Part shown: one piece after another, positions 5,631-55,105 of the stretch
Numbering within the stretch: position 1 is the first letter of the stretch
How the letters are laid out: each line of letters begins with the position of its first letter
Origin: Arcuatula senhousia
Taxonomy: Eukaryota; Mollusca; Bivalvia; Mytilida; Mytilidae
Length of the DNA: 64,000 nucleotides
Assembly (NCBI GenBank): GCA_963971305.1
Contig: OZ020316.1
Location: 15,518,745-15,582,744 of the forward strand
Direction of reading: 5' to 3'
Notes under the pieces: generated by a model
Told to the model about the DNA's origin: nothing
Seen by the model: the letters and a program-made list of their open reading frames with translations, nothing else
Database searches by the model: none
Position numbers and translations under genes: made by a program

Positions 5631-5683
5631 TGCAAGTTTTTCCCCCACAAAACTGTACATCTTATACGCCTAATTTTACTTAG

Positions 5684-10600: not shown

Positions 10601-12245
10601 TCAAATGAATATCGAACGAATATCAAACCAAAGTTTATTTACGTTTGATATTCATTTGACGTTCGTTTTAGGTCCAGTTTTGTTTTGTGAATATCAAATG
10701 AATATCAAACCAAAGTTTTTTTTTTCCTGTTTGATATTCATTTGACATTCGTTTCCGGCGTTAATTTGTAGCGTGAATATAAAATGAATATCAAACTAAA
10801 GATAAATTCCGTTCGATATTCATTTGACATTCGTTTCTGATGTTAATTTGTATTGTGAATATCAAATGAATATCGAACGAATATCAAACCAAAGTTTATT
10901 TACGTTTGATATTCATTTGACGTTCGTTTTAGGTCTAGTTTTGATTGGGGAATATCAAATGAATATCAAACCAAAGCTTTCTTCTGTTTGATATTCATTT
11001 GACATTCGTTTCCGGCGTTAATTTGCATTGTGACTATCAAATGAATATCAAACAGAAGAAAACTTTGGTTTGATATTCATTTGATATTCACAAAACAAAA
11101 CTAGACCTAAAACGAACGTCAAATGAATATCGAACGTAAAATAAACTTTGGTTTGATATTCATTCGATATTCATTTGATATTCACAATACAAATTAACAC
11201 CAGAAACGAATTTCAAATGAATATCGAACAGAATCTATCTTTGGTTTGATATTTTTTTATATTCACGCTACAAATTAACGCCGGAAACGAATGTCAAATG
11301 AATATCAAACAGAAGAAAACTTTGGTTTGATATTCATTTGATATTCAGAAAACAAAACTAGACCTAAAACGAACGTCAAATGAATATCGAACGTACTTTG
11401 GTTTGATATTCATTCGATATTCATTAGATATTCACAATACAAATAAACACCAGAAACGAATGTCAAATGAATATCGAACAGAATTTATCTTTGGTTTGAT
11501 ATTCATTTTATATCCACGCTACAAATTTACACCGGAAACGAACGTCAAAAGAATATCGAACGTACTTTAGTTTGATATTCATTCGATATTCATTTGATAT
11601 TCACAATACAAATAAACACCAGAAACGAATGTCAAATGAATATCGAACAGAATTTATCTTTGGTTTGATATTCATTTTATATTCACGCTACAAATTTACA
11701 CCGGAAACGAATGTCAAATGAATATCAAACAGAAGAAAACTTTGGTTTGATATTCATTTGATATTCACAAAACAAAACTAGACCTTAAACGAATGTCAAA
11801 TGAATATCAAACGTAAAATAAACTTTGGTTTGATATTCATTCGATATTCATTTGATATTCACAATACAAATTAACACCAGAAACGAATGTCAAATGAATA
11901 TCGAACAGAATTTATCTTGGTTTGATATTCATTTGATATTAACAATAAAATTTACACCGGAAACGAATGTCAAATGAATATCAAACAGAAGAAAACTTTG
12001 GTTTGATATTCATTTGATATTCACATAACACACCTTGACCGAAAATGAATGTCAAATGAATATCAAACTTTAAAATTTACCGTTTGAGATTCATTTTGAT
12101 ATTCATTACATATTTAGAAAGAAAAACGATAAATGAATATCGAATGAATATCAAACGGTAAAATTTACCGTTTGATATTCAGTTTGATATTAAAAAAAAT
12201 GAATATCGAATATCGAACATCGAATATCAGTCTCACTTTACTTAG
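7645..12245. mobile_element. 4.6-kb foldback-like element: long palindrome built of tandem monomers
   Basis: Both termini carry the same sequence inverted: TAAGTAAAGTGAGACTGATA on the left and its complement TATCAGTCTCACTTTACTTA on the right. At least 230 bp of terminal sequence is mirrored, including the AAACGGTAAATTTTACCG palindrome. The interior is a tandem array of 80-95 bp monomers made of GAATATCAAATGAATATCAAACC, AAAGTTTTCTTCTG or AAAGATAAATTCTG, TTTGATATTCATTTGACATTCG and a short spacer. Orientation flips near 11020-11050, where AACCAAAGTTTTCTTCTG becomes CAGAAGAAAACTTTGGTT. This gives a left arm of about 3.4 kb and a right arm of about 1.2 kb. No transposase frame is present; open frames inside are repeat translations. 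Confidence 0.8.
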
Positions 12246-22500: not shown

Positions 22501-25500
22501 CATTTGTATATCAAATGTAGGGATAAATATATGTTGTTGTATTCAAATTTGACATAAATGGAAAATTCATAAAGATAAAATATTTAAAATCAAAATGAAA
22601 ACTAAGAATCAGATTAAAAATTTTAAATTGTGCCCAACCAACATTTTGGTCTGTAAAAACTTCATAAGAGACACCCAAACACCAAAATAGAATTGAAGAG
22701 CCAAGTAAGATACCTTATTTTAAATTGAAAAAAAAAACCCAACTTATGTTCAATTAATTCCCCTGAATCATGAGAATGATTTCTAAAAGCAGTATTTGGG
22801 AAAGTTGAAAATTCTTGCCTGACCAATAACAAAGGTCTGCAGGACCGATTGAATATTTTAATTGTAAATTTGACCAAATTCACCAGACTGAAGGCTAATT
22901 TGTAAATTTTTCATCGGACAGGTCCAACGGTCCGCCACATTTCGTGAAGACTGGAAAGCAATATACTTTTCATGCAAATCTTCATATGATTTAGTTCCCT
23001 TGTGTTAAGTTTCATCAAAATCCATCCAGCAGTTTAAGATAAGATGTGCTTAAGAGATATGTGGACAGAACGACCAACAGACAGACAGACAGACAGGCAG
23101 AGTGATTTCTACATTCCCCCAATTTTTGTATGACAAAGACTCACCCAGTCCCAGGTACTCTAGACCCACCAAATATAATCATGGTGTCTTTTATAATTGA
23201 AGCTGAATGCCCAGCAACTTTAGGAGGGTTCTGTCGTGAAATACTAGAAATCAGATACCATCGGTTATCCTCGGGTTTGTACATGTGTAGTTCAGAGAAA
23301 AATCCTGCAGCCTAAAAATAAAAGAAAAGGAGTTTACTGGATGCATGATTGATAAATAAAAAATCCCCCAAAAGTGGTACTGTACAATGTACAACTGAAA
23401 AAGATAAAGTGGCACGATATTGCACATTTAAAATGCTGAAATAGTCCTTCTTTAAAATTAGTGCATCATAAAATTTCAATATTCGAAAAGGATTTTTTAA
23501 GTTCAAAAGATTTTAATAAAACAATCTATATTGTTATATATCTGATTAGCTTAAGAGTTTTGACATTAAGAAAATGAATACCAAAAGTAATATATGCAAA
23601 AAATGGAAAGCAAATAACAAGATAAAAACAAAGAAAGCTCATGTGATTTTTTTCTTTTTTTCTCACAAACTATACAGTAAGAAAATTAATATTTGTCAAA
23701 GCAAAAATGGAGGCATGCTGATCCAAAGACAAAAGCCACAGACCTACAATTATGCATACATGTGATTCTGCCGCTTGGAGACTTTTTGACCCAACGCCAG
23801 TTCTCCCAATTTATAGCGTTATCTCCAACTTTTCTAAGACTTGAGTATTTTTTAGGTTTATCAAGTTCCTAATAGGTAGACTTCAAAATCTCAGGTCAAA
23901 GTGTGAATTGCAGTTCTTCAACTAATGTTTTTATAAGCAGTGGGAAATTAATCAGTTAGCCGGGTTTCTTCAGGGGTATTTACAGTACATGTACATGCTA
24001 GTGCCCTCATATCAATTAACATTAAAAATCTATTTGTCAATGCAATGAGTTAAAAATATCCCTTTCCAAATTCCAAATCTCCAGCCTTGTTGCAAAGGAT
24101 TTGTCACTAACAGTCACATGTATGATAATGGGACCCCATGCAGATTCTGAAAACCCAATACATGCATCATTGAGTGAGTGAGTGAGTTGGTGTTTTACGC
24201 CCGTGCAACGCTATATAGGTTATTTACAGGCAATGAACATGAAAAGGATGATACAATGAACATGAAATGATGATGATAAATGAAATATGGGATGGGGTGG
24301 GAAACACAGGGATGGTAAATTTTGAAGAACCACAGGAAAAGGGGAGAAGTGGGTAGGGGCGAAAAATTTAGCCTATGTGGTGCACTACTTGGCGGTCCAC
24401 AAAGGGGTCTTTTACGTGCATGAAGCATGGCATTCTCCACACACGTTGGCCCACTATGGTCGGCGGTCAGGGTTTCCGTATTATAGACCTGACAACCCCC
24501 GCGGACAAGGGCTACCCTATTCAGCCACCTAGGGTACACACTTTGTTGCTCTGTGGGCTGAGCACTGTCCCGACGTAAGAATCCCTATACCCATAGTCCC
24601 CTCTTACGACAAGCTAGGATCTGCTGCGGGCCTATTCCCCGCCCAGGCCCCGCACAGGACTTTACATAATGAAACTGGTCAATAAAATAACTACAAAACA
24701 AACCTGATGTAGAGGGTAGGGTGTGGGATGACTCCAGCCTCCAAACAAAACAAGACTATCTTTGTATACCAGCATACTGGAACATGCTTTAGGTGAAGGG
24801 TAGGTTCCTGAAATTTAAAATGTACACAGCTAACACCATTACTTTAATGAAAATCAATTAGGTTATTTTACAAACCAACATTTCAATTAAAGAATTCACT
24901 TTTTAAATGTTAAAAATATTTGATATGTATATCATTTTAAAAAAAATTTGTAGACTACAATTAGGAGTTGGAGCAATAAGATTTTTTTTATTCTTGAAGA
25001 AAGCATGTACACTATTATGTCTGCTAAATTTATTATTTACTACAATTAATAATTTTAAGGATCACATAGTAAGCAGATATTTGTTTCAAAATTTTTAAAA
25101 TTTGGTTAACTATTTGGTATTTCTTAATCTTATCAGTTTATCATGTATAAGTACCTGTGGCAAGTGGTCTTATCCATTCTCTTCTAGCTAGATCAAACCT
25201 CCAAAGGTCATTGAAGGTCGTGTTGGTGGAGGTACACCCTCCAAACACATACAGAGATCTGTCATAATAGCAAGCACAGTGTGAGTAACGCTCTGTAATG
25301 TGGGTTCCCATGTCGGGGCAAATCTTCGTCCACTCTATCTTACTATCATTTATTGAAGTGATAAAAGATTGTTTCTTCTTTCTTATTACACCTACAATTA
25401 AAAAGAAAAGGATTCAGAGGTTATACTTTACAGGATATCTAGAAAATGTGTCAAAAACAAAAATGGCCCAATTTGGTTCAACAGGAAAAAGATGAGCCAC

Positions 25501-28500: not shown

Positions 28501-31294
28501 TTTCTGCCGAACATCTTTTGTTTCACGGCTGAACAGGGCATTGAAAACATCAGTCATCTCAGAGAGATCAAATTATTTCGAGAAAAAAAAATTGAACATC
28601 GTCTGGAAAATCCCTGCCAGTATTTGGCAAAAAATCACTCAAGGATAAAGTTACAAATAATTTTCGATTGTTAATCATCAAATCTTCAGATTTAAATCCT
28701 GTAAAAACCCTCTTTGACATCACAACCGTTCATAAAATTGATGACTTCTTCGTCATCACTCTAATTTACATCCGCCATTTTGAGACATTTTTCAATCACA
28801 TTTATTTACTTTTTATTTTTCATGATAAACAGTAAAAACACCCGAGAAACCCGAAAATAATTGAAATTTTATCCAATCACAACCGTTAAAAGAATTAACA
28901 TACGTCATTTCCGATAAGGATTTCCCTTTGTTGCTTAGAAACTACGATAAACATGTGGGTCCGAGAAACGACAATAGTCGCGCGTAGCAATGCCAGTTTG
29001 AATAATCAGAACGACAATTGTCGCGCGTAGCAGGCTAAGGGTTAAGGCAATGTCTTTCTCATATTATGACAAGTATCCAAATCTCAGGACTTTAAACAAT
29101 GAACAACTTTTTATATGGATCATGTCAAATGAAGAAACCACTTTTGTTGACTCTCTTTGCTCTTTATTAGAATCTAGTGATCTAATTTCTAAAAAAAGTC
29201 TGTGCATGTGTTAAAAAACAGTCGGAATTAAATTACAATGTAGAGTACTCTATAGCATATTGTCACTAATCAGTCAGGGGCGTAACTTAAATAAGTTATT
29301 ACAGAAAAATAACAGTCATGTGTTATTAGAGGCGTTTTTTTTAGTTGTCTTCTCTTGATTATGTATAATTTTCTTAATCTCTAATAACATGTGGCTGTTA
29401 TTTTTTTAAGCAACCATTTCATTTTCTGTTTGAATTAGACTCTGTAGATCTCTAAACCTCTTTGCGCAGTGACTTAATTGATAGAATTTACTAATGGCTT
29501 ATCAATGAGGTAAACATATTTATATGCGAGCGAAGCGAAGCTCTCTATTGTACAGAGTCTGCCAAATTGCACGAGACTCAAAATACGATGGTTGAAAATA
29601 AATTCTGTCTCGCTACTCGGAATGCATCTGGAATTTACGAAAATACCGGGTCTCGCGTTAGCGAGACCCTTTATTTTCGCTTATTTATTTACAAACGGTA
29701 ACAAAACAAAACCTTTTCTTGTTGTTAATGACAATAACTTTCTCAATAAAAAATAACTTTCTAACGAACAAACACTAGTTGTTTTGTTTTTACAGAAATA
29801 TGGCTTTCTCTCGCGAGATCGAATTCGTGACCTTTTACCCATAGTGCATAGTCATGCGCAGAAAAATTGTGGGAGTTTCGGAACTTTTCATAACACAGAT
29901 TCATTAAAATAAAGTGATCAGCAACTGTTTTTCTACATATGTAAGATAATTTGGTCCTACCTGATCTGAAAATAAAATCCTAATCCATCCTTATCCTATG
30001 TGGTCCCTCAAACTGACAAAGTTAAATGATCATTTGGATACGTCGTCATTTTCCACCAGGTTTCTAAATCAATTTTTTGCAGACAGTACTTGGCAATTAT
30101 AGATACGGGTATACAAAAAATATAACAAAACCTGGCAGACTGAGAGCGGTGACATTTTGATGTCGTCTGCTTGTCGAATGATATCATGTGACTGAAGGAT
30201 CGATTAAGTTATGGATGATGATGTCCCGGCCGCAAACCATATTTTGGCGTTTTTACGGATAATACATTTTTTTCAAATAAATTATTAAATTTTTATCCAA
30301 AAGTGGACCCTCTTAGCTATTGATTCTGCCGAGGGTATTTTGACATTTTTTCCAGATCCAATTAAGGTTAATTCAACCTAGTTTTGGTTGCACCTATTAT
30401 ATTGATTTTGTATCTTCGCGAGCTTTTGGGGCAGAGCCATTATCATATTAATGAACCATACCAAATCAATGATACAAGGCTTTTAGTGATGCCTCTTGAC
30501 TGTAATAACAATCATTTGTTATTATGTGTAAGATAAGATAATATAAGATAAGATAATATTTATTTAAAGTCGATATAGGTTAATAACATTTTGTTTTCTA
30601 ATAACTATGGCCTGTTATTACAGATAACAGTGAACACTTTAAACCCCATGTCATTGATTTGGTATGATTCATTGTAAATGTGGTTATTAGATTGAGAAAC
30701 AATTGGTTAAATCTATCAATTAAGTCACTGCGCAAAGATGTAGAGAGATCCAAAGAGGCTAATTCAAGCATAAAATGGAATGATTGCTTCAAAAATTAAC
30801 CACCACATGTTATTACAGATTCAGAAAATTACACATAATCAAGATAAGACAACTAAAAAAACCACCTCTAATAACACATGACTGTTATTTTTCTGTAATA
30901 ACTTATTTAAGTTCATATAGGGCATGAAATGTGCACCCAATTGAGACCCTCCTAATTTGTAACCCCCATTAACTCTTTGGTTACACCTGGTTACATTGGT
31001 AACATTAGTTTCTGGAACTAGAAATCATGTACAAGACCCATAAAAATATACAGTAGTCAACTGCAAATAAAACAAATTCATAACCCGGTTCAACAAATGT
31101 TCAAAAATTATGTACTACTGTGTACAGCTTTCAATCAAATAAATACCAGTGACAAGACGATGCCATCGATGACAAACCATCATCGACGACTTGAGATCAC
31201 GATAAGGAGACAAATTAGATAAAATGTACTCCAAGATCTCCTCTGGTAACTCATTTATGTTCATGTTTGTTTTTTCTTCAACATCCATTTCCAT
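18672..31294 (-). CDS. FBXO42: FBXO42: F-box and Kelch-repeat SCF ubiquitin ligase adaptor, 8 coding exons
   Basis: Coding exons in transcript order: 31294-31147, 25391-25155, 24807-24704, 23311-23145, 22412-22316, 21866-21810, 21108-20992, 19559-18672. All junctions are GT..AG with consistent phases and sum to 1815 nt (604 aa plus TAG; human FBXO42 is 717 aa). Residues 13-50 are an F-box ([16 protein letters not shown]); four Kelch blades follow with FGG/IGG cores ([33 protein letters not shown]). A Ser/Gln-rich low-complexity linker precedes a conserved C-terminal strand ([10 protein letters not shown]). Family knowledge: the F-box binds SKP1 and the Kelch propeller recruits substrates to the CUL1 ligase; in humans p53 has been reported as a target. 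I chose ATG 31294 (ACAAAATGG context); ATG 31288 is also possible, and an upstream in-frame ATG at 31393 seems less likely. The first intron (5.8 kb) is full of transposon debris. Confidence 0.93.
19560..20991. other. FBXO42 intron 7, mostly a pearl-like insertion
   Basis: Bounded by the exon 7 donor and exon 8 acceptor. The 19843-20939 part is a mobile element (separate entry); the rest is AT-rich intron. Confidence 0.7.
19843..20939 (+). mobile_element. pearl-like element, copy B (5 core repeats)
   Basis: Same left end (ACAAGAGTTAACACGAAAGT) and right end (GTCCCGCTCTGCTTCGCAGGC) as copy A. Five cores are spaced 172-185 bp apart, judged by the ATGCATACC landmark at 20087, 20272, 20446, 20620 and 20792. 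The 163-aa frame is a repeat translation. Confidence 0.75.
20992..21108 (-). CDS. FBXO42: FBXO42 exon 7: end of blade 4
   Basis: [17 protein letters not shown] ... [13 protein letters not shown], 39 codons, phase 0 at both ends. Donor GTAAGA. Confidence 0.92.
21109..21809. other. FBXO42 intron 6
   Basis: Contains a fragment GACGTTAAACTCCCCAGTCAGTCAG (around 21545), typical of dispersed repeat tails, and a G-rich tract at 21759-21771. No other feature. Confidence 0.5.
21810..21866 (-). CDS. FBXO42: FBXO42 exon 6: start of blade 4
   Basis: A 57-bp microexon-like unit of 19 codons, [19 protein letters not shown], phase 0 at both ends. Acceptor TTATGCAG, donor GTATAC. Confidence 0.92.
21867..23144. 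other. FBXO42 introns 4 and 5 sequence (exon 5 lies within)
   Basis: Mostly plain AT-rich intron. 22890-23125 is a copy of the GTTTCATCAAAATC...GTGGACAGA repeat also found at 440 and 60050, ending in a (CAGA)n tract. Confidence 0.5.
22316..22412 (-). CDS. FBXO42: FBXO42 exon 5: end of blade 3
   Basis: [17 protein letters not shown] then [10 protein letters not shown]. Acceptor ACTTTTACAG, donor GTAGGA. Confidence 0.92.
23145..23311 (-). CDS. FBXO42: FBXO42 exon 4: end of blade 2, start of blade 3
   Basis: [18 protein letters not shown] ... [21 protein letters not shown], ending in a split Gly (phase 2). Acceptor TTATTTTTAG, donor GTGAGT. Confidence 0.92.
24172..24660. repeat. interspersed repeat in FBXO42 intron 3 (GAGTGAGTGAGT...TTACGACAAGC)
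   Basis: Begins with a (GAGT)n tract and GTGTTTTACGCCC. It ends with ATAGTCCCCTCTTACGACAAGC and a GC-rich tail, clearly more GC-rich than its surroundings. It resembles mollusc SINE-like families (recollection, not verified). Open frames on both strands here are element translations. The rest of the intron (23312-24703) has no other feature. Confidence 0.5.
24704..24807 (-). CDS. FBXO42: FBXO42 exon 3: second Kelch blade
   Basis: [16 protein letters not shown] then [17 protein letters not shown]. Acceptor AAATTTCAG, donor GTTTGTT. Confidence 0.92.
25155..25391 (-). CDS. FBXO42: FBXO42 exon 2: linker and first Kelch blade
   Basis: Acceptor TACAATTGTAG's AG (TTGTAG), donor GTACTT. Contains [29 protein letters not shown] and [10 protein letters not shown], closely matching vertebrate FBXO42. 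Confidence 0.92.
25455..25680. repeat. interspersed 200-230 bp repeat, copy 3
   Basis: Carries the family order CAAAAATGGCCC, ACAGGAAAAAGATGAGCC, TTATGGGACC, CAAATATCAAATGGCTGTGA, GTTGCTGAGAAA, GACATTCACCATTTTATAAC, TCACTCTGTGAAAT. Lies in FBXO42 intron 1. Confidence 0.65.
26095..26520. mobile_element. palindromic element made of GAGTT/AACTC repeats
   Basis: The left arm 26098-26225 (GTGTAGGTAATCATCGAATT, then repeated GAGTTCGAGTTAAAGTTTGAG) is mirrored by 26355-26512 (AACTTTAAC...AACTCGATGATTAACTACAC). A related single arm is at 36064-36250. A likely hairpin-forming MITE in FBXO42 intron 1. Confidence 0.65.
26568..26640 (-). repeat. LINE-like 3' tail, minus strand
   Basis: Read on the minus strand, GCCCCTTCAGGGTCTCTG is followed by GGAAATAAAGCC and (ATTCTT)n. 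The same arrangement occurs on the plus strand at 58377-58430. It looks like a retroposon 3' end with its simple-sequence tail. Confidence 0.45.
27098..27243. mobile_element. 145-bp hairpin MITE
   Basis: AATTCAGGGTTGGTTACTTTTTCA at the left is matched by TGAAAAAGTAACCAGCCCTGAATT at the right. It is inserted within the open stretch 27070-27597 and accounts for the first third of that frame. Confidence 0.65.
27244..27388 (+). pseudogene. retrotransposon (LINE-type) fragment, C-terminal CCHC-like region
   Basis: Translates as [19 protein letters not shown] then [15 protein letters not shown] and LFLKSLL. The Cys-X2-Cys, His and Cys spacing followed by ECP is typical of the C-terminus of mollusc non-LTR retrotransposon polyproteins. 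A microsatellite (ACATGTACATGTA) sits inside. The continuation may be at 29045-29205 (YYDKYPNL...[10 protein letters not shown]), interrupted by about 1.65 kb. Family-level assignment is inferred. Confidence 0.4.
27389..29040. mobile_element. probable insertion splitting the LINE fragment
   Basis: Begins GGGAGCGTAGCGAAGCTCAC followed by TCTGCCAAATTGCACGAGAC. The same start recurs at 29527-29590 inside another element. CGCGAGCTTTT occurs at 27616 and at 30417. Near the right end, ACGACAAT(A/T)GTCGCGCGTAGCA occurs twice (28969-29030). No coding frame recognised in the middle (27600-28950). Confidence 0.4.
29045..29210 (+). pseudogene. possible continuation of the LINE fragment
   Basis: Reads [19 protein letters not shown] then [19 protein letters not shown], which resembles the last ~50 residues of mollusc LINE ORF2 proteins. 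A stop follows after SLCMC. Confidence 0.35.
29284..30915. mobile_element. 1.6-kb element with about 220-bp terminal inverted repeats
   Basis: Left arm 29284-29500 (AACTTAAATAAGTTATTACA, GTCATGTGTTATTAGAGG, TTTGCGCAGTGACTTAATTG) is inverted at 30690-30915. The arms are rich in TAATAACA motifs. The inside holds a copy of the GAGCGAAGCGAAGCTCTC sequence also found at 27389. No transposase frame. Lies in FBXO42 intron 1. Confidence 0.72.
31147..31294 (-). CDS. FBXO42: FBXO42 exon 1: start and F-box
   Basis: Encodes MEMDVEEK, then the F-box ending HRWHRLVTG. Donor GTATTTATTTG in phase 1; the split Gly codon is completed by GT of the next exon. Confidence 0.88.
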
Positions 31295-32690
31295 TTTGTT
31301 GGTGTAGGGAAAAATCTTAAGATAATCCGAATAGAATTTTTGGGGGCATGCCAAAAACATGATGTGGATCATCTTTTTTTTTTTTAATAACATTTTTCCT
31401 GGGTATTAACCATGTTTTACGACAAAATATTTAGTTAACATGAACAAATGAGATATTTTTTAATATCTTATATCGTAAAACTAGAGTTAGGCCTTATAAA
31501 GTAGTTTTTTTTTTGTTCGTTTTTCGGGATTGAATGATATAATTTAGCACCACGTGATTTTCGTTCGGAATTCTTTTGATTTTTTCTTCCAAAATTTCAA
31601 GTTTCATGCTTTTAACAGTTTAATTGAAAAAGTTACTAACAGATCACAGAATAGAAAAGGTTGTACCAGCAGCTGCACACAATCTTATCACACATTAAAA
31701 TCTTAATCTGACATACATTATGAATAATTTCCCCCTATGAGTATGACTTTCTTGCTACTCTTGTTGCCTGTTGGACTGAGCAAAGCTGAGCAGAGCAGTG
31801 CAGTGTAAATGTGCTGTTAGTCTTTAGGGCTCCCACTGGATCAAAGACAACCTTCAGTCTTCCCGAAATGTACCTTTCCGCTGGACCTGACTGGCAAAAA
31901 ATAGGAAAATTTCACTGTGGTCAAGTCTGGCATATTTGAGGGGGCTGATGAGTTTATTTCGTTCTCCGTTACTGGTAATTTTTATTTTCCATGAATTGTG
32001 ATTTGCTGAAATTTTTTTCTGTGCATTGTGAAAGGATATTGCACGTGAACGGTTCTCAGCAAAGAATTTTGACCATATTTCTGTGTTTCGTTATTTCCAT
32101 TTTTTATTCTTTGTGATTTGTGATCAGGACCCCCATATTTGTTAAATAATTTTACAAAAGAAATACGAAGTCGATCCAGCAGTACATGTATTTGTTTATA
32201 TGTAGGTTCAACAAGCCAAAATCAATTTTGGCAATGACTGAAACTTGTAATCTGAAGACTTATAACGAGCAACTTTCCAAAACTATTTTGTGAACAACCA
32301 TTGATTTCCTTGAAGATTTGTTGAAAACGATCTGGGTCCTCAATGAGGGAAGCCGCTACAATTCAAGGGTTGCACTATATATCCGTTCCGGATTTGATTT
32401 GTCATTTAGACAAGGTCTAAGGGGTCACAGGGAGGAAAATAGACGTCATTCAACAAGGGACAAAGGGAACGGCATTTTCTATCAACGATTCTTCTGTAAT
32501 TATTCAACGTATAGGGTAAATATAATTTGTAACTGACAAATAAACCAACCATCAACATTTCCAACCCATAAAAAATCAATCTTGAATGAAAATAAAGAAA
32601 TTACTTTGTCCATGTTGTCCATTAGTAATTTTTTTACCAGTTTCTCCTCATTTGGCTAAAATAGTGACCGATCCAGCAAATGCACAACCA
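31295..32690. promoter_or_regulatory. FBXO42 upstream region (promoter presumed here)
   Basis: No TATA box or CpG-rich block is evident. Sequence is AT-rich, with GCTGAGCAGAGCAGTGCAGTG at 31785-31805. The 5'UTR and start site cannot be placed from sequence. The 72-aa frame at 32318-32536 has no support. Confidence 0.25.
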
Positions 32691-32694
32691 GTGT

Positions 32695-35455
32695 ATGTTA
32701 AAGGGAATATGTGTAATTAGGGATAATGTGTAATCCTTAGAAATTCAGGGATTACATGTAATCTCTAAATCGCATGGGGATTACGTGAAATCCCTAGATT
32801 TAACCAGGGATTACATGAAATCCCTAATTTTATCAACTTTTTAACATGTTTTCCCTGACCCTCAAAAAGACTTCAAAATGAATCTTTCTCTTAACCATTC
32901 TATTGTTAAATAGCATAATTGCAAACAAAAATCTATAATTCAATGTTCCTTATCATTTTGTTTCATATTACAAATACCAAAAAGCGGGTATAAACAGTTA
33001 ATTTGGGTATGCTATATATCGATATTTCAAGGAGTAACCTCTCATCAGTAGCATTTAAACCAAAACATTGGAAGGTCAAAATCCAAAACAGTTGATTGAA
33101 AGCGAAAAGTACTCAAAACCAAAACGTTCGAACAAGGAAGCCAAATCCAGCACCGAGGATATCGACCATGTGCATTACAAGGAAAGAAACCTGGTGTTTT
33201 CATCAATTTTGAATTTAACAATCGGAAATTTTAGCGACAAAATATTAGACATTTTATGGTAATTCGTGTCAGACAAGTCTGACTACCAGGCTTGTGATTA
33301 CCCTCGGGGACCTATGGTCCACCAGCAGCGGTTATCGCCCAGTGGTTTCAAAATTACAAATACCAAAAAGCGGGTATAAACAGTTAATTTGGGTATGCTA
33401 TATATCGATATTTCAAGGAGTAACCTCTCATCAGTAGCATTTAAACCAAAACATTGGAAGGTCAAAATCCAAAACAGTTGATTGAAAGCGAAAAGTACTC
33501 AAAACCAAAACGTTCGAACAAGGAAGCCAAATCCAGCACCGAGGATATCGACCATGTGCATTACAAGGAAAGAAACCTGGTGTTTTCATCAATTTTGAAT
33601 TTAACAATCGGAAATTTTAGCGACAAAATATTAGACATTTTATGGTAATTCGTGTCAGACAAGTCTGACTACCAGGCTTGTGATTACCCTCGGGGACCTA
33701 TGGTCCACCAGCAGCGGTTATCGCCCAGTGGTTTCAAAATTACAAATACCAAAAAGCGGGTATAAACAGTTAATTTGGGTATGCTATATATCGATATTTC
33801 AAGGAGTAACCTCTCATCAGTAGCATTTAAACCAAAACATTGGAAGGTCAAAATCCAAAACAGTTTATTATATCTTATAATTTCTTCTGATGTATTTTTA
33901 TCATTTCAGTATACATTTATTTTAATAGGAAAGATATAAAGTTGAATAGATGAAGTACCGGTATATAAGATTAATTTTTCTCATCTTAATCTGCTTTACC
34001 AAAAGTGGGACAAATTTTTGAAATGGCAATAATATTCACAGAGATGCAGATAATTATTTTATTCTGTCAGACATTGGGTCCTTCAAGATAGTTAAATTTG
34101 CGGGACCCTTAAAAGGTTTTGCCAGACCTTTTAACTTAAAGTCTAACTTTTTCAAAACTTTTGAGTTTCCTTGTAGCTTCACTTTTAAATTTCTATATGT
34201 TAAAATATTTAGTTTGTTTATTTAATTTTCATACCATTTAAATAAAAATGATGGTTATTTTTTCATGTAAGATTTTTCTGTTTTATTTTGATCACATAAA
34301 TCCTCCCTTCTCTTAGGAAAAAATCAGGGTTCCAGTGTGAAAACCTTATGATATTCTCTGAACTGCTTGTGTGAAAATTAACACATGTATTTAAAACATG
34401 CGTAATAAATCTAATGGACCAGAACAAATAACATTTACATAAAAAGAATTAAGATTCAAAACAATATTCATGATATTGTTGAATGGAAAAGGGAACATAG
34501 AATAATTATAAAACATAAGGAAAAAAATCCCCAAAATGTCCTTAGATTGTAATGCCTGATGAAAAAATAAAAGTCAGGTTTATAATTTTGTTGGATTCTA
34601 TTTCTTGTTCCAAGATTAAGGAAGGTCGCTCTTGTTTCTTATACTTAAAGAACTCAACATTTTCAGGACATTAAAGCTTCAAATTCATGCCAATTTCAAC
34701 GTTAAGGGACCGACCATTTTACTTGAAGGTGTGTTCTTATTGTTTTCTTAAAAAATACTCTTAAGCTGACTTGTGATGAATAAAATATTGTGACATAATG
34801 AGAAAAATGTTTTGTCATGACACGGTTAAAAATATTTTTTTGGATCTTTGTGTGGAAAAACATTTTCTATAATCACATGAAAAAACCCGTTTTCAAGTTA
34901 AATATCGGTACTAAGAAACCAGAAATGATGTTCACCTAACTTGATTCATCTAAATAAGTACATTTGTAAACCGAAAAAAGGCAAAAATTTCAAAGAACTT
35001 TTATTACCTCAACTTGAAGAATGCGCTAATAACAGCAATAATGCTGTAATTTCCAGGAAGCAAATGAAAATAACAGTAATAAGTCAGAAAAAACACTTTG
35101 ATAGGACTTATTGAAAGTTAGATTCCAGATTCATGAAATGATCTTTTATATAATGCATAACATGAAATATTATATATTAACTGCAGTTTCATATTGCAGA
35201 ATGGAAGAATAATTTTTTGGTTGTTTAATAAATAAATCCAATAGTTATGAAGTGTTAATCCTTCAAAAAGCAGGAAAACATATTATTGATATTCACGTGT
35301 AAAAATTTCAAAAAATTTCAGGGATCACGTGTAATCCCCAGAAATTTCAGGGAATACATGTATTCCCTGAAATGGTTAGTGATTTCATGAAATCCCTAAT
35401 TTCTTTAAGGGAGTACACGTAATCCCTTATTAAACAAATTCCCTGTAACATTATC
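32695..35455. mobile_element. segment bounded by clusters of GGGATTACATGTAATCCC palindromes
   Basis: The left cluster 32703-32830 and right cluster 35318-35450 each contain several imperfect palindromes of the type AGGGATTACATGTAATCCC (variants GGGGATTACGTGAAATCCC, GGGAATACATGTATTCCC). Between them lie 2.5 kb holding the 386-bp triplication and AT-rich DNA. Repeated palindromes at both ends suggest one mobile element with subterminal repeats (inference); no enzyme gene is visible. Confidence 0.45.
32968..33866. repeat. tandem triplication, 386-bp unit, 2.3 near-identical copies
   Basis: Copies start at about 32968, 33354 and 33740; the last is truncated near 33866. The landmark AAAAAGCGGGTATAAACAG is spaced exactly 386 bp twice. 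No differences were noticed over the copied length. Each full copy carries an open stretch reading LIESEKYSKPKRSNKEAKSS ... FSSILNLTIGNFSD, preceded by AAAACAG and followed by ATGGTAATTC, which could act as acceptor and donor. There is no ATG, so it is not called a gene. Confidence 0.85.
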
Positions 35456-36250: not shown

Positions 36251-36617
36251 CTTATATGGAGATGTCTGTATGATCCAGAGTCAATAAAAATTTTGTATTA
36301 AGTCTAACTTGTTTAGTCACAAAATCCATACACATGTACATTTGTGAAGAATGTATTGGAATAGTTCTATAAACAATGTTAGATCAACACATCCAGAATC
36401 AACATTTATATATTCTACCAGTTTTCCCAGATTTCTTCTCCTAGCGTGTCTGATGAAGGTTAATCCAGAAAAGACTTCACATGCAGTGAAATTTTGCTTA
36501 GTGCATTTCAATATGTGGATGGTGTCTTTCTGGCACATATTCCATATTCTTTCGTTTTAATATTTGTGTTTGCACTGTTATCTATACATGTATTTTTATA
36601 ATTTTTTCCTCTTTTTC

Positions 36618-36620
36618 AGA
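36618..36620 (+). other. 3' splice acceptor of a probable CCDC115 5'UTR intron
   Basis: TTTTTTCCTCTTTTTCAG ends at about 36620, eight bases before the ATG pair at 36628. This implies a non-coding first exon upstream, which was not located. Confidence 0.6.
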
Positions 36621-36627
36621 CTGCCAA

Positions 36628-37236
36628 ATGATGTCTGAGGTTAACAATGATGATGACAGTAAGCAGGATTCTGAAAGTATGGAAAATCTGAACCAAAAGC
36701 TTGACTCAGTCCTCATAGAGTTTTTCGAATGTCTTGGAGAGTTGTATAAAGAACAAGCCAATTTAGAAAATTGTATGAAAAATGGATATCTGATGATGTC
36801 AAGAGCTCGATACAGCATGGGAGCAAAATCTGTAGGGGTATCACAGTACAATGAAAATAAAATGAAGGCTTCTAAAGTTGTGTTAGTGGGAATCGATAAT
36901 GAAAATGACAAGCCATTTAAGTTAGTAAACTCAAAAGACAATCCCTTAGTAATGGACAACATTGATGGCGAAGGAATTAGACAGAGGAAAAAAGGAAATG
37001 TTGAAACGTTAGGACCACAAAGCGAGAGCAAAGAAAAAACACATTCCAAGACCACAGATGGTAATGACCCCTTGAAATGGTTTGGGGTTTTAGTACCTCA
37101 AAGTTTACGCCAGTCACAAACATTTTTTCAGCAATCCATAGATCAAACTATTATTGTTTCTAATTTGAAATCAAGGATTATCTCCCTTAGAGACCAATAT
37201 AAAAGTTTGAAGAAAGAAAAGCATCTATTAGCATGA
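36628..37236 (+). CDS. CCDC115: CCDC115: V-ATPase assembly factor (Vma22 homolog)
   Basis: One coding exon, 202 aa (human about 180 aa). Two conserved blocks identify it: residues 21-75, a helical region ending SRARYSMGAKSVGVSQY, and residues 147-202, DPLKWFGVLVPQSLRQSQ followed by a basic coiled coil. The middle is an acidic/basic low-conservation linker with RQRKK. Family knowledge: CCDC115 with TMEM199 and VMA21 helps assemble the V0 sector of the vacuolar proton pump in the ER-Golgi, and loss disturbs Golgi acidification and glycosylation. No signal peptide or membrane segment. Start chosen at the first of two adjacent ATGs; ATG 36631 is equally possible. A strong acceptor lies just upstream, so the coding region is uninterrupted but the gene is probably spliced in its 5'UTR. 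It is divergent from FBXO42, 5.3 kb away. The reverse-strand frame here is a shadow. Confidence 0.92.
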   Translation: MMSEVNNDDDSKQDSESMENLNQKLDSVLIEFFECLGELYKEQANLENCMKNGYLMMSRARYSMGAKSVGVSQYNENKMKASKVVLVGIDNENDKPFKLVNSKDNPLVMDNIDGEGIRQRKKGNVETLGPQSESKEKTHSKTTDGNDPLKWFGVLVPQSLRQSQTFFQQSIDQTIIVSNLKSRIISLRDQYKSLKKEKHLLA

Positions 37237-47539: not shown

Positions 47540-47700
47540 CTATTTCCATGCCTTGTTCAAAGCTTTCCTTGCTGCTAATTTTTGAGTTATAAATGTCACT
47601 AAGAACATGCCTAGCATGACTAATGATATAAAATAAAAGTCAAAGTCTTCCTTTAGTACATCAAACATCTTAGAAGGCTGGACTCTGGTGAAGAATAAAT
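47540..47700 (-). CDS. EMC1: EMC1 terminal exon: membrane anchor
   Basis: Acceptor TATATTTTCAG; (D)[18 protein letters not shown], then a hydrophobic segment ([17 protein letters not shown]) and [17 protein letters not shown] at 47540-47542. Confidence 0.93.
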
Positions 47701-50700
47701 CTGAAAATATACAAAATGACAAGATTTAAAGACTGAAATCTGGTGAAAAATAAGCTAAGAGTATACCCAAAAGACATTATGCCCCATCTCCCAATATTTT
47801 GGATGGATGGACAAACAGACTGAACACTTTATGCCCCTTACTTTCGTTGATGGGGCATAATATTGGAAATATACAAACTGACGAGATTTAAAGACTGAAC
47901 TCTGGTGAAAAATAAAACTGAAAAAAATGTAGTAAGTAGGTTATTCATTAAAAATTTCTGAAAAGCGTCACGTACTTACTTAAACCATTAGCTAGCACCA
48001 ATGATGTAGACTCCAGGCCTGCTGGAGAGGTGTGTATTACTGTTACGTTATATATTTACCTAAACCATAAGCTAGCACCAATGATGTAGACTCCAGGCCT
48101 GCTGGAGAGGTGTGTATTCCTGCTACGTTATATATTTACCTAAACCATAAGCTAGCACCGATGATGTAGACTCCAGGCCTGCTGGAGAGGTGTGTATTCC
48201 TGCTACGTTATATATTTACCTAAACCATAAGCTAGCACCAATGATGTAGACTCCAGGCCTGCTGGAGAGGTGTGTATTCCTGCTACGTTATATATTAACC
48301 TAAACCATAAGCTAGCACCAATGATGTAGACTCCAGGTCTACTGGAGAGGTGTGTATTCCTGCTACGTTATATATTTACCTAAACCATTAGCTAGCACCA
48401 ATGATGTAGACTCCAGGTCTACTGGAGAGGTGTGTATTCCTGCTATGTTATATATTTACCTAAACCATCAGCTAGCACCAATGATGTAGACTCCAGGCCT
48501 GCTGGAGAGGTGCATATTCCTGCTACGTTATATATTTACCTAAAACATTAGCTAGCACCAATGATGTAGACTCCAGGCCTGCTGGAAGGGTGTGTATTCC
48601 TGCTACGTTATATATTTACCTAAACCATTAGCTAGCACCAATGATGTAGACTCCAGGCCTGCTGGAGAGGTGCATATTCCTGCTTTGATATATATTTACC
48701 TAAACCATAAGCTAGCACCAAAGATGTAGACTCCAGGCCTGCTGGAGAGGTGTGTATTCCTGCTACGTTATATATACTTTGGTTATAGTTAATGATAGCC
48801 TCTGTTGATACAGGTAATTCTGGAATATACGGTATTATCCCCTCCTCCCTGAAATCAAAAATTTATATCAAAATAAACCTAAAAAATCTGTCAAAGTCAA
48901 AAATGGCCGGATTCGTTAAACAGGAAGTAGGTGAGACAGACCTAAAATCGGTTCCCACGTTATGGGACCTGTAACACCCTGATGCTGTATACCAAATATC
49001 AAGTGGCTGTGATTAGTAGTTGCTGAGAAAACTGTTACGAAAATTTTTTCCCCTCCTGCCCGCCCGACATATACCATTTTATAACCCAGATTTTTCACTC
49101 GGTGAAATCCGGCCAATAAGGATTAGAAAATATGCCTGACTTTTTTATATTGGTAGATCATTACTTAAAAAATAGTTGTTTCGAGACAGGTTCATTGGAG
49201 AGGAGAACAATTACTTATTATGTGTACATGCTTTATCAATCTAAAACAAGGATTAATTCACTTCTTATTTGACACAATATCCCCGTTATAGATGCTTAAT
49301 ATATTTTGACTGATGTGAAATATTACTGCTATGTTATGGTAATTCTGCAGTGTATTATCTTTTTGTTTTGTTACTTTTTTTAGCTACGTATTTTATTTGA
49401 TAAACTATTATCATAGTATTTTAGGGCATTTATAATAAGAAAGAGTAAGAAATTTCATTCTTATGAAGAATTGGAAAAATCTACTACACATGTACATACA
49501 TAGTTTCTTGAGTTGGTATAACAGGACGTCTAGGATCTAGGAAAGCTTTAGGTAGAGACAGCAACCCTCCATGTACTAGGGCAACTGAAACAAAATAATC
49601 AAACTCATGAAACATGTACATACAAATGTTGGTATGTTGAGACATGCAAACCTTTGCATTTTCCAGCTTTTTAATTTTTTTTATATCAAAATACAGGCTA
49701 AAACACAACCTTTTTTCGATTTAAAAAACAGGAATTTTTTTGTTTCATACATCAATTAGGTTTTATAATTTGAAACAAGAACAGAATTCCTGAGTCCCCC
49801 GCCGATCGTAAAAAATTCTAAGTCCGCTCTCTAAACAGGAAGTAGGTAAGCGACAGACCTGAAAACACACCTGACCATATGACACCCTTACCTAAAACTG
49901 CATACCAAATATCAAAAGCCTAGGATTAATAGAAGCTGAGAAATCTGTTAGGAAATTTTTTCCATTTTTGACCCTTTAAAAAATCTAAGTCAGCTTGTTA
50001 AACAGGAAGTAGGTAAGCGACAGACCTGAAAATGCATCCCACCATATGAGACGCCTAACCTGAAGCTACATACTAAAAATCAAAAGCCTAGGATTAAAAG
50101 TAGCTGAGAAATCTGCTACAAAAAAAAGTGTGACGGATGGACAGATGCACGCACACACGGTTGGACGCCCAGCATTTCTATGAAAAAAACCTAGGGACAA
50201 GTTGTCTCCAAGTACAAATTGTTACATTATCATAATAATGCCCCCCCCCAATATACAAGGTAGATTACTTGTCAAATACTTACATAAAATAGATTTACTA
50301 GTGATCCCTTTCTCTGTAATAGTAGTGGCCATGGTATATATAGGCATGGGCATAATAAAGGAATGCCGCAGGACGAGTGGCTCATGTGGTGCTGTGTGGC
50401 TAGAGAAGGCTGTGGAATTACTCTGCTCTTTCCCCTCAAACATTTCCAGTACAGCAACTTCTTTCCTTCTACTCTTCTGATTGTAGTAATCATACTGTGA
50501 AAATAAAAACATGATATAATCTAATAAAAAGATAAAATGTGTCAAAGTCAAAGATGGGCATATCTTATTTTACAGGAAGAAGGTAAGCCACAGACCTATA
50601 ATCTACTCCCATGGTATGCAACCAGCCACGGAGACTGTTATTACTAGTTGCTGAGAAAACTGTTACCAAAATTATTCCCCGTCAACCCTATCTGCTGCCT

Positions 50701-53700
50701 GACATTCACTATTTTATAACTGCGATCCTGTCAAAAAAGTACTGCTTATGCTAACCTTATGCCTAATACATGTATATGTTTATTATATGTCCATGTATAC
50801 ATGGTCACTTAAGTTTAGAGTACATCTAGCTATAAAGAGTGAATATATTAAACATGAAAACCATGAAAACTGATGCCCCACAAAAAATTAATACTTTCAA
50901 AATAGTCAACATATGGTAACTTATATGAAACAAGTCAAAATATGAGTGACACAATAGGCAATTCATTTAATCTTTTTTTAACCATAATTTCCAGAAACCT
51001 ATGTTGGTCACCAGAAAACATCAAAAATAATGTGAATACAAGGTAAATGTTATCAAGTTTAACATTATGTTTTGGCGTGTGTGTGTGTTGGTGTATAACC
51101 CCCTTTATCGACGCACCCAGGCCATGTAGGGCGGTCAGTTTTAATGGTGAAGGAAACTGGAGTACCCGAAGGAAACCACCGATAATGGGCAGGTAACTGA
51201 CAAACCTAATCACATACAGTTTGGGAAGTCCCTTTTTTGTTAAATACATCATGTTTTTGCAAGCATGTTACTATTGCAATTTTTTCCTGTGTAGGCAAAA
51301 ACTAACATAGGTCCTTAAAAAGGTAATTAATCTCCCTTATTTTTAAATCTTATTTTATAGTACATGTATTGGATAGCTGATCAAAATTTCATCATAATCT
51401 ATCGAAGGGAGTTTCTTTGTAATAATCTGCAAACAGTCTGGGAACACATGGAAAGACAATGAGCAAATAAAGATAATAACAAATTACCGAACTTGGAAGA
51501 TCAATCTCAATGACCAAGAAATAAAACATGGAAGACACATCGGAAAAGTGTCCAAGAAAAAAGACAAAACATTGAGAAATTATAGGTCCTGACTTGATAT
51601 AGAGGCTATAACATATTGCTTCATTACTAAGTGTGATGGGGTATAAAATGTAAATCATTGCTTTTTATTTTAAAGTATCTCTCATAAAACTAATTTCAAA
51701 TGAAAGACTAAAACTGATTCTTTTCTTAACACTTACCACAACCCAGTTTTCACTATGTATGATGTGAACAGGACCTTTAGCTCTTCTGTGATTGCCATGG
51801 AAAACAATGTGACCTTTGACACTGTCAATCAAATAAATATTGACAAAGTTTCCAGGACCTGTAAAATATTACAATAAACATATACAAAGAGATAATGAGA
51901 CGTGGAACATGTCTACACAACACAGCAGAAATTTACATTAACAGTTCTATGTTTGTATATAAAAAATTGTATATATTGTTAGATCCTTGTACTTGTATAT
52001 TAACAGTTTTTTGAGTTTTTCACTGTATTATGTGAGTAGGTTAAACCTTAAGCTAGGTAACAATTCATAATGACCATGTATTCACCACTAGTAATATTTC
52101 AACATGTTGCAGATGACATAAAAATGCTACCTTTCTGTGAAGTTGTAGAGGTGTCTTCTCCTTCAGCTACTACCACGGCCAGATTGGGATTGATGTACTT
52201 ATATAACACACTTCTGTCACCAAGGACACGACCTTGAGAGTGGACATGTTCTGTAAAGACATTCAATGAAGATTTTTATAAATCGTTTACCTTACAACAA
52301 ACAACAATACTAAAAAATACATCATACTGTATTATTTCTAATCCACTACATGTATCTCCTATTCAGTTATGCTATGTAGAAACTGATTGATCACTTTTAA
52401 CAAGCTAAAGTTTACATTATTCATAGTGTAAATCTATAAATCTTAAGAGAAAAAATCTGTCAAAAAGACTGGATTGTTTCAAAGGATGTGAAAGACCGAC
52501 TTGAAATAGAATCTCACCATATGAGACCCCTTTCTGATGCTTCATACAAAATATCAAAAGTCTGTGATTAACAGTTACTTAGAAAACTGTTACCAAATTA
52601 TTTCCCTGTCCCCCGCCAGCTGCCAGACATTCACTATTTTATAACCCAGATTTTTCACTCCTTGAAATTTGGCTTATAAATTAAGCATATAATCAAATTA
52701 AAATGTGATTTAATAAATTCTAATAAATCCATTTTGAATTTGAATGCTTTTATTTGCTTATTTGCTTTTATTTATGTTAAATTTCATTTTTACTGAGAAA
52801 CCTTGTATGAGAAAGATCTCCACCCAAAACCTTTGACGAGTGAAAAGAAGTTAAACTGTTTTGAATTTCCCCTTCTGTCAATCAAAATGATTTACTGACG
52901 ATAAAAATTTGCAGCTTTTGGTCCACCTTATACTACATAGATGTTTTTCCGTTATTTTACAGATAGTTGAAATACACCTAAAATATTTTTTTGTATGTTG
53001 AACTTAGCCACATATTAACAATAATATGTGAATAACAATCTGCTAAGGACTACATGCATAGTTGATCACCTAAATATTCCATTTATATTTCTTTTAAAGA
53101 CTCTCAGGCATGTGTTTTATTGCCAGTCTAAAATTTGCTTTGCCTAATATTACCATTATATCTTTTAAACACAACATCTGTGATTGTCTGTTGTTTTTTC
53201 TGGAGGTTGACATTCCATACTTTCTCTGCTTTTAAATCCTAAAATATTACAGTATCAAAATTTATGAATGAATGAATATATGAACAAATGAATGAATAGT
53301 TGAATGAATATTTACTATGCATCAGCTTATACAAGATTTTGCCTATTGATTTCAGTTTATAAAGACTTGTTAAAAACTTTTAGTTGTCCAAGTTATGAAA
53401 AAACCTAGCTCCACCTTTTAATTACCTAACTCACACGTGATAAGGGTTCTACATAGTAATAGAAAGTGTTTGTAATTAAGATAATTCACTTATATCTAAT
53501 GAAAATGTGTAAAAGATCTAGACCAATTTGGCCGACACAAACAGCATAAAGTGAAATAAAATTCATTTTAAGATTGCTAATGAATCCTACGTACTATAAT
53601 TGAACAAGTAAATAACAAAGAAAATAAAAAAGGAATGTGTCCATGGGACACAGATGCCCCCGCTGGCCCTTAACAGGAACTAGTAGTCCGACAGGTCTGA

Positions 53701-55105
53701 ACGTTTCTAAGGACATAGTTTGTCATACTGAACCATCCTAAACAAGTTTCAAAGTATTCTTGTTCAGGTTCCTGAGAAAAGCTTGACAGAAATTTTCAGT
53801 CATGTTCACATATTTTCACATGGGCCTAAGTACCAAACAGGAAATAGATGTCTAACAGGTCTTAAAATTGCTTAGGAACTACAGTTTGTCATACTGAACC
53901 ATCCTACCAAGTTTCTAATCATTCTCATGTATGGTTCCTGAGAAAAGCTTGAGGGAAATTTTCACAGACATGTTCACATATTTTCACATTTGCCTTAAAG
54001 TCCCAAACAGGAAATAGATGTCTGACAGGTCTTAAAATTGCTTAGGATTACAGTTTGTCAAACTGAACCATCCAACCCAATTTCAAATTATTCTCGTGTG
54101 AGGTTCCTGAGAAAAGCTTGACAGAAATTTTTATAGTCATGTTCACATATTTCCACATCGGCCTAAGTCCCAAACTGGAAGTAGATGTCTGACAGCTCTT
54201 AAAATTGCTTAGGACCTACAGTTTGTCATACTAAACAATCCTACAAAGTTCCAATCATTCTCTTGATTGGTTTCTGAGAAAAGCTTGACGGAAATTCGTT
54301 CGGACAGAAGGACATGAGTTAAACTTAATGCCCCCAATATGTTGTCGGGGGGCATAAAAATACAGCTTAAATAAATACTTTATATATTTTCCACACATCG
54401 AGACATTTGTTTATTGCAAGTCATGTCAATGTTCTGTACATAGTTTTATATTTGTTTGTTTGTTGAATTGATATCTTTTACTTTTTATCTATGTATAGGT
54501 AAGTTAGGTGAGAACCCTCAACTTACCATTTTTTGCATATAAAACCTTACTTTAGATACCCTTAAGCCATTTAACATCCCTGTGTTAACATCAACCACTT
54601 ATAAAACCTTACCTAAGTTACCCTGAAGCCATTTAACATCCCTGTGTTAACATCAACTACTTATAAAACCTTACTTTAGTTACCCTGAAGCCATTTAACA
54701 TCCCTGTGTTAACATCAACCACTTATAAAACCTTACCTAAGTTACTCTGAAACCATTTAACATCCCTGTGTTAACATCAACTACTTATAAAACCTTACTT
54801 TAGTTACCCTGAAGCCATTTAACATCCCTGTGTTAACATCAACTACTTATAAAACCTTACTTTAGTTACCCTGAAGCCATTTAACATCCCTGTGTTAACA
54901 TCAACTACTTATAAAACCTTACTTTAGTAAGTTAGTTACCCTGAAACCATTTAACATCCCTGTGTTAACATCAAAACTTATAAAACCTTACCTTAGTTAC
55001 TCTGAAACCATTCAACATCCCTGTGTTAACATCAACCACCATGACATAAATACTAGAATGTATTCTGCTGACGACAGACTTGTAACTTGGAGGATATACA
55101 TTTAT
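47540..55105 (-). CDS. EMC1: EMC1: ER membrane protein complex subunit 1, C-terminal 8 coding exons (partial at 5' end)
   Basis: Exons in transcript order: 55105-54992, 53238-53154, 52250-52131, 51858-51737, 50494-50284, 49584-49500, 48848-48700, 47700-47540. Each has GT..AG boundaries and the phases chain correctly (1047 nt, 348 aa plus TAG). The protein matches the last ~350 residues of human EMC1 (993 aa) throughout: [76 protein letters not shown], then [11 protein letters not shown], a membrane segment and a basic C-terminal tail. Family knowledge: EMC1 is the large subunit of the ER membrane protein insertase, with luminal beta-propellers anchored by a C-terminal helix. The N-terminal two thirds were not found to the right and must lie past 64000. 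Odd feature: the 3' ends of two exons, with their donors, are amplified in tandem into the following introns. Confidence 0.94.
47701..47980. other. EMC1 last intron, left part
   Basis: Contains a duplication of the segment ACTCTGGTGAA(G/A)AATAAA ... GAAATATACAAA at 47680-47720 and 47865-47925, and a GATGGGGCATAATATT repeat terminus at 47850. Confidence 0.4.
47981..48780 (-). repeat. EMC1: 10 x 80-bp tandem copies of the EMC1 exon (g) 3' end plus splice donor
   Basis: Copies start at 47981, 48061, 48141, 48221, 48301, 48381, 48461, 48541, 48621 and 48701, exactly 80 bp apart with a few substitutions each. On the minus strand a unit is 60 nt of exon (GAATACACACCTCTCC to TATGGTTTAG) plus 20 nt that starts GTAAATA and ends GTAGCAG. 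The rightmost copy is the authentic exon end. Confidence 0.95.
48700..48848 (-). CDS. EMC1: EMC1 exon (g), followed by tandem copies of its own 3' end
   Basis: [48 protein letters not shown], ending in one base of the Asp codon completed by the last exon. Acceptor TTTGATTTCAG. Donor GTAAAT at 48699 is the first of ten equivalent donors; using it gives the conserved protein. Reading through meets a stop (ATA ACG TAG). Confidence 0.9.
48880..49115. repeat. interspersed 200-230 bp repeat, copy 4
   Basis: CAAAAATGGCCGGATTCG, AACAGGAAGTAGGTGAG, TTATGGGACC, GTGATTAGTAGTTGCTGAGAAAACTG, ACCATTTTATAACCCAGA, TCACTCGGTGAAATCCGGCC. The best-preserved copy; in an EMC1 intron. Confidence 0.7.
49500..49584 (-). 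CDS. EMC1: EMC1 exon (f)
   Basis: [20 protein letters not shown] then VIPTQET and a split Met. Acceptor TTTTGTTTCAG, donor GTATGT. Confidence 0.93.
49780..50180. repeat. interspersed repeat with two cores (AACAGGAAGTAGGTAAGCGACAGACCTG)
   Basis: Starts GAACAGAATTCCTGAGTCCCCCGCC, with two cores about 155 bp apart, then ACGGATGGACAGATGCACGC and a ...GGACGCCCAGCATTTCTA end. Related in design to 57041-58022. Confidence 0.6.
50284..50494 (-). CDS. EMC1: EMC1 exon (e)
   Basis: [61 protein letters not shown]. Acceptor TTATTTTCACAG, donor GTAAGT. Overlapping frames on the plus strand and in other minus frames are shadows. Confidence 0.93.
50530..50725. repeat. interspersed 200-230 bp repeat, copy 5
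   Basis: GTCAAAGTCAAAGATGGGC ... TTGCTGAGAAAACTGTTACC ... GACATTCACTATTTTATAAC. In an EMC1 intron. Confidence 0.55.
51075..51235. repeat. interspersed repeat with AAACTGGAGTACCCGAAGGAAACCACCG
   Basis: This GC-richer block reads like a dispersed invertebrate repeat. The intron around it (50726-51736) shows no other feature; the minus-strand frames at 50935-51658 are unsupported. Confidence 0.4.
51737..51858 (-). CDS. EMC1: EMC1 exon (d)
   Basis: [18 protein letters not shown] ... [15 protein letters not shown]. Acceptor ATATTTTACAG, donor GTAAGT. Confidence 0.93.
52131..52250 (-). CDS. EMC1: EMC1 exon (c)
   Basis: [19 protein letters not shown] then [20 protein letters not shown]. Acceptor TGTCTTTACAG, donor GTAGCA. 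Confidence 0.92.
52450..52680. repeat. interspersed 200-230 bp repeat, copy 6
   Basis: AAAATCTGTCAAAAAGACTGG ... ATATGAGACC ... TTAGAAAACTGTTACCAAATT ... GACATTCACTATTTTATAACC ... TCACTCCTTGAAAT. Remaining intron 52681-53153 is plain. Confidence 0.5.
53154..53238 (-). CDS. EMC1: EMC1 exon (b)
   Basis: [13 protein letters not shown] ... TDVVFKRYN then a split Glu (phase 1). Acceptor AATATTTTAG, donor GTAATA. Joins to HVHSQGR of the next exon as in vertebrate EMC1. Confidence 0.86.
53630..54358. mobile_element. tandem-core element, about 4 cores of about 180 bp
   Basis: Starts GGAATGTGTCCATGGGACAC and ends GCCCCCAATATGTTGTCGGGGGGCATAAAA. Cores carry AACAGGAAATAGATGTCT, AGTTTGTCATACTGAACCATCC, TTCCTGAGAAAAGCTTGA and CATGTTCACATATTTTCACAT. 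Confidence 0.65.
54539..55041 (-). repeat. EMC1: 8 x 62-bp tandem copies of the EMC1 exon (a) 3' end plus splice donor
   Basis: The landmark ATAAAACC occurs at 54539, 54601, 54663, 54725, 54787, 54849, 54911 and 54980 (62-bp steps; the last is 69 because of a 7-bp insertion). On the minus strand each unit holds the exon tail GTTGATGTTAACACAGGGATG ... GTAACTAA(G/A) and the donor GTAAGGTTTTATAAG. The rightmost copy merges with the authentic exon. Confidence 0.93.
54992..55105 (-). CDS. EMC1: EMC1 exon (a): propeller strand region
   Basis: [18 protein letters not shown] then [16 protein letters not shown]; 38 codons, phase 0 at both ends, acceptor TTTTTTTTTAG, donor GTAAGG. Its last ~45 coding bases and donor recur seven more times to the left. 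Confidence 0.88.

Follow-up and report, generated by a model that had tools for sequence, protein, structure and literature searches.

The minisatellite of human IFI6 (6-16) is reportedly made of a short unit. As far as the cited account describes it, this minisatellite lies at the end of an exon, each unit carries a donor site, and two downstream repeat units act as donors, from which three mRNA species result (Turri, Cuin and Porter 1995, NAR 23:1854, cited in PMC4526556). The same arrangement is found in one of the two copies of EMC1 in the mussel Arcuatula senhousia (copy B), where tandem units span an exon end and each has a donor-like site, and the IFI6 minisatellite, as a supplier of splice donors, is the nearest precedent within the literature cited here. 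The two systems differ in that the downstream donors of IFI6 are used, whereas those of EMC1 are candidate donors whose use would meet a stop codon.

De Grassi and Ciccarelli (2009; PMC2812944) reported 27 intron modifications, with tandem repeats at the exon-intron borders of human segmentally duplicated genes. There, minisatellites likewise expanded across exon-intron borders and paralogues differ in copy number, but those cases are human, come from recent segmental duplications and have transcript support, whereas mussel EMC1 was read from DNA. The dual-specific splice-site array of UBC, whose in-frame units are spliced to a varying number, also consists of tandem repeats with AGGT at the unit borders (9 of 10 in the EMC1 array); it is, on the published description drawn on here, an array in use (PMC10809524), whereas the EMC1 unit is intronic and, at 80 nt, not a multiple of three, so that it cannot be kept or removed without a change of frame. 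Intron gain by tandem duplication of an AGGT-containing segment (PMC3443670, in the part relevant here) resembles the EMC1 case in that the duplicated segment includes AGGT and, in EMC1, runs across an exon-intron border. A first-pass annotation of this DNA had linked the array to this model of intron birth. The link does not hold, because the paralogue (copy A) already has the same intron at the same position, and the intron was lengthened (999 nt in B vs. ~385 nt in A) and not created, unlike in the described intron-gain cases, where a new intron arises (PMC4974935). Nor is the array a tandem exon duplication, since the true acceptor of the exon (48849) lies outside the 80-bp unit and units 2-10 lack coding constraint. 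A literature search that included Mytilus found no paper describing a mussel precedent.

The window analysed here is a stretch of 64,000 nucleotides (C14:15518745-15582744) from a genome of 1,036,387,356 bp. The exon at the array belongs to EMC1, as had been proposed: it matches Pfam EMC1_C (E 1.9e-37), and phmmer, with a typed join of several exons as the query, matched the human EMC1 chains 8eoi and 6ww7 at E 8.5e-76 and 9.2e-76. Among the best 120 of 1629 relatives, the closest were EMC1 of Mytilus californianus and M. edulis (93%). With tblastn of M. edulis EMC1 against 161,256 bp around copy A, as well as the whole genome (47 of 62 candidates scored), copy A was recovered as a full-length EMC1 (C14:15664308-15625451, residues 7-972), and copy B (window 47540-55105 and beyond) as a 5'-truncated duplicate matching residues 366-972 only. 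Copy B starts ~3.6 kb past the stop codon of copy A on the same contig, and the corresponding exon ends at the array are ~58.5 kb apart. Homology between the two extends from the intron ahead of A's exon for residues 333-366 to ~1.6 kb beyond the stop. Judged from this comparison, copy B is a tandem duplicate, and A and B form a natural before-and-after pair, with one donor in the former and a row of near-identical donors in the latter (Table 1).

Table 1. Features of EMC1 copy B in the window (positions are those of the whole window).
Feature	Position	Strand	Basis
80-bp array, ten units, each made of 76 nt of exon end followed by GTAA	47976..48775	-	TRF, unit comparison
Penultimate coding exon, residues 871-919 of Mytilus P0002; unit 1 makes up its final 76 nt	48700..48848	-	tblastn, splice sites
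Donor 1 (GTAAAT), predicted sole donor from which the EMC1 frame stays open through to the last exon	48694..48699	-	donor scoring, read-through stop
Nine more donor-like sites in 80-nt steps, GTAAAT from 48619 to 48059 except GTTAAT at 48299; AA/GTAAGT at 47979 with the old intron flank	47976..48619	-	comparison with paralogue A
Last coding exon, residues 920-972, stop TAG	47540..47700	-	open reading frame, tblastn
Degenerate copy of the last-exon start behind a good acceptor (AG ends at 47918)	47848..47915	-	
Second degenerate copy of the last-exon start, running into the true acceptor	47686..47753	-	
Inverted-repeat (MITE-like) element between the two degenerate copies, 13-nt arms 47776-47788 and 47849-47861	47776..47861	.	
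Second donor array, 7.9 copies of a 62-bp unit, following the exon for 624-661; also in paralogue A	54538..55036	-	TRF, tblastn

TRF resolved the array (48775-47976, minus strand) at period 80 with 10.0 copies, 94% matches, 0% indels and a score of 1418. The first-pass annotation had described ten exact 80-bp copies at 47981..48780. Ten units at exact spacing were indeed recovered, 5 bases away from that interval, but the copies are not exact: they differ from one another at 5.8% of sites on average (maximum 11.25%), and in the 48775 register copies 7 and 9 alone are identical to the consensus. Specifically, GTAGCAG, which had been placed in every copy, is present in 7/10 (copies 2, 5 and 10 keep CAG alone), and the GTAAAT donor recurs at eight of the ten sites, with the two exceptions given in Table 1. 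Unit ends read TTTAG/GT in nine cases and TTTAA/GT in the last, and in copy 1 the 20 nt preceding the 60-nt exon piece are exon and not donor. In copy A the unit is present once, with the donor TTTAG/GTAAGAATGTGAC (GTAAGA), and unit 10 of copy B retains a similar old flank, AA/GTAAGTACGTGAC; together these indicate an amplification in which intron position +4 became linked to a site lying 76 nt within the exon. The only match to the array elsewhere in the genome was the single-copy exon of the paralogue (C14:15625990-15626074; two candidates, both scored), and chance is excluded on that ground.

We consider it likely that the array is a neutral, exon-derived minisatellite that is removed as intron from the first donor. 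On this account, the final 76 nt of the penultimate exon, together with the donor GTAA, would have been duplicated in tandem in copy B and grown to ten units, with every extra unit placed beyond the first donor, in the intron. Splicing would most likely run from donor 1 (48699) to the acceptor that ends at 47701, and the other nine units would leave with the lengthened intron, so that the protein would be unchanged and the extra units would drift. We infer both that donor 1 is the donor in use and that the array lacks a function. The pair of loci would offer a simple test of how the splicing machinery picks among equal donors, and it would illustrate how tandem repeats can expand at the border of an exon while the protein shows no obvious damage.

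Substitution patterns in the exons and in the units are consistent with this account. Over 583 codons, 56 synonymous and 4 nonsynonymous changes separate A from B (dS 0.166, dN 0.003), and 2 of the nonsynonymous ones fall in residues 438-972; the two exons flanking the array (residues 871-972) hold 10 synonymous changes and none that are nonsynonymous. Under drift of copy B from the origin of the array onwards, residues 871-972 should hold ~7 nonsynonymous changes, and the probability of zero is 8e-4, a rough value that takes the mean unit divergence as the age of the array and is conservative if gene conversion acted among the units. These counts show that copy B stayed constrained. The exon beyond the array probably mattered to copy B after the array had formed, and the array is thus probably spliced across correctly. 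By comparison, units 2-10 carry 15 nonsynonymous changes and 1 synonymous change that are unique relative to A's exon (10 and 0 within the 60-nt piece; the sole synonymous change is also found in unit 1); the corresponding counts for the real exons are 4 and 56 (Fisher p 2e-11). The neutral expectation is ~0.70 nonsynonymous, and the observed 15/16 lies slightly above it (P 0.026). We count this slight excess against a neutral minisatellite, together with the equal donor energies at 8/10 sites, the lack of a 5' half in copy B and the counts for B's 85-bp array, all discussed below.

With regard to donor choice, the U1 duplex energy of donor 1 is -6.7 kcal/mol vs. -9.4 for the donor of copy A, the G at +5 being lost in the new array donors, and it falls inside the range covered by 25 scored EMC1 donors of A and B (-1.1 to -10.2 kcal/mol). 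Eight of the ten array donors have equal energies, so that motif strength by itself gives no preference for donor 1. Splicing from donor 1 to the 47701 acceptor yields the normal protein, and any longer exon runs into an in-frame TAG at 48634-48632, which agrees with the read-through stop that had been predicted. It is possible, though in our view unlikely, that donors 2-10 are used to extend the exon past this TAG, which would yield truncated or decayed mRNA and allow the array to lower or tune the output of copy B. The equal energies, the loss of the +5 G and the stop in the read-through would all suit such a role, but both exons flanking the array stayed constrained and the array shows no sign of constraint of its own. 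Moreover, a stop codon too close to the junction usually escapes nonsense-mediated decay, and the stop reached from donor 2 would lie just 13 nt from the junction, too near for decay by that rule. "Decoy donors", as the first-pass annotation had put it, is a fair description of a row of candidate donors, but nothing indicates a function.

More unusual than the array is copy B itself, which by its substitution pattern is constrained though it lacks a 5' half in the assembly searched. Among the 47 of 62 tblastn candidates scored, no 5' half for copy B was found, and the searched genome holds one exon set for residues up to 365 and two for 438-972. By eye, the acceptor is gone from B's exon for 400-440, which also carries deletions, and the exon for 333-366 is truncated in B. 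A plain dead pseudogene, hinted at by the missing 5' part, was rejected for residues 438-972, as neutrality predicts ~101 nonsynonymous changes along the B branch, against the pairwise total of 2. One could also envisage a single EMC1 gene with one 5' half that is joined alternatively to either of two constrained 3' halves (tail A or tail B), where the array would set the frequency of productive tail-B splicing. Such a gene would have no need of B's exons for 333-366 and 400-440; the damage to them and the near-absence of nonsynonymous change at 438-972 point in this direction, and we hold the arrangement to be improbable. Slightly less probable still is an assembly artefact, either a mis-sized array or an unmerged allele placed in tandem as copy B. 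The missing 5' half would be explained in this way, but the units bear distinct substitutions, the 161,256-bp stretch of one contig in which both A and B lie contains zero N, the synonymous divergence is, in our judgement, high for alleles, and the damaged exons of copy B do not fit an allele.

Candidate acceptors in the array were scored with a rough frequency matrix. Scores of those at GTAGCAG or CAG run from -4.4 to -9.6, and in 9/10 copies another AG lies no more than 12 nt upstream, whereas CCAGCAG/GCC, present in 8/10 copies and in phase for a 13-residue insertion, scores 0.5-1.3, between the real EMC1 acceptors at 48849 (-0.8) and 47701 (2.5). The phase arithmetic of the first-pass annotation was confirmed, in that the 60-nt piece is in phase 1 at both ends and has 20 open codons in all ten copies. 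Its proposal of optional modules, with 20 residues inserted in frame by unit-to-unit splicing, appears very unlikely, as does a 13-residue version of it, for although the phase, the open frames and a CCAGCAG that outscores one real acceptor would permit it, units 2-10 show no coding constraint, the GTAGCAG and CAG acceptors are poor, neighbouring units would leave 20 nt as an intron so that at least one unit must be skipped, and none of seven aligned relatives has extra residues at the position of the array.

Further tandem arrays occur at exon edges of this locus. Besides the 62-bp array (Table 1), a 130-bp acceptor array lies ahead of the exon for 568-624 in both A and B, and an 85-bp donor array follows the exon for 366-399 in B only (C14:15620799-15621890); outside the window, the 62-bp and 130-bp arrays lie at C14:15631768-15632268, 15644621-15645218 and 15601085-15601538. 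The 85-bp array of B carries 3 nonsynonymous and 4 synonymous changes, and relaxed constraint is not shown by this array alone. The 62-bp array of A carries 7 and 3, and pooling these two with units 2-10 gives 25 nonsynonymous and 8 synonymous changes. By eye, both B-only donor arrays (80 and 85 bp; two cases) break directly after the donor GTAA; in both, the new donors are without G at +5 and the last unit retains the old flank. Tandem arrays of period 20-150 make up 8.3% of the 161 kb, and exon-edge arrays are no commoner than this density predicts: 5 of 76 edges lie in arrays vs. 6.06 expected (p 0.62, 2000 circular shifts within this locus), a comparison based on 38 exons with edges set by hand and a copy-number rule that missed the 85-bp array. 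With all periods of at least 20, the figures are 5 edges vs. 12.67 expected. Within this locus, the circular shifts thus showed no particular preference of tandem arrays for exon edges.

The last intron of copy B holds two degenerate copies of the last-exon start (47915-47848 and 47753-47686), which are 84% alike over 68 nt. Sequence resembling these copies or the inverted repeat was also noted by eye in the intron of copy A. The stretch 47917-47842 was considered as a cassette exon and rejected, as its 76 nt up to GTAAGG are not a multiple of three and the frame ends in a stop.

Elsewhere in the window, a large satellite-like block at 7780-12191 is composed of ~82-bp units built on TGAATATCAAA; from ~11037 on, the TRF consensus is the reverse complement, so that the block changes orientation. 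A tandem repeat at 32960-33869 (period 386, 2.4 copies, 99% matches; TRF) appears to be very recent. An open frame at 5674-6165 (+) with repeated KR-GRWKNF-like stretches resembles a neuropeptide precursor by eye and had no Pfam match. F-box and Kelch open frames at 31118-31405 (-) and 25144-25413 (-) are possibly exons of one F-box/Kelch gene, and an open frame at 36505-37233 (+) matches Vma22/CCDC115 (PF21730, E 8e-23).
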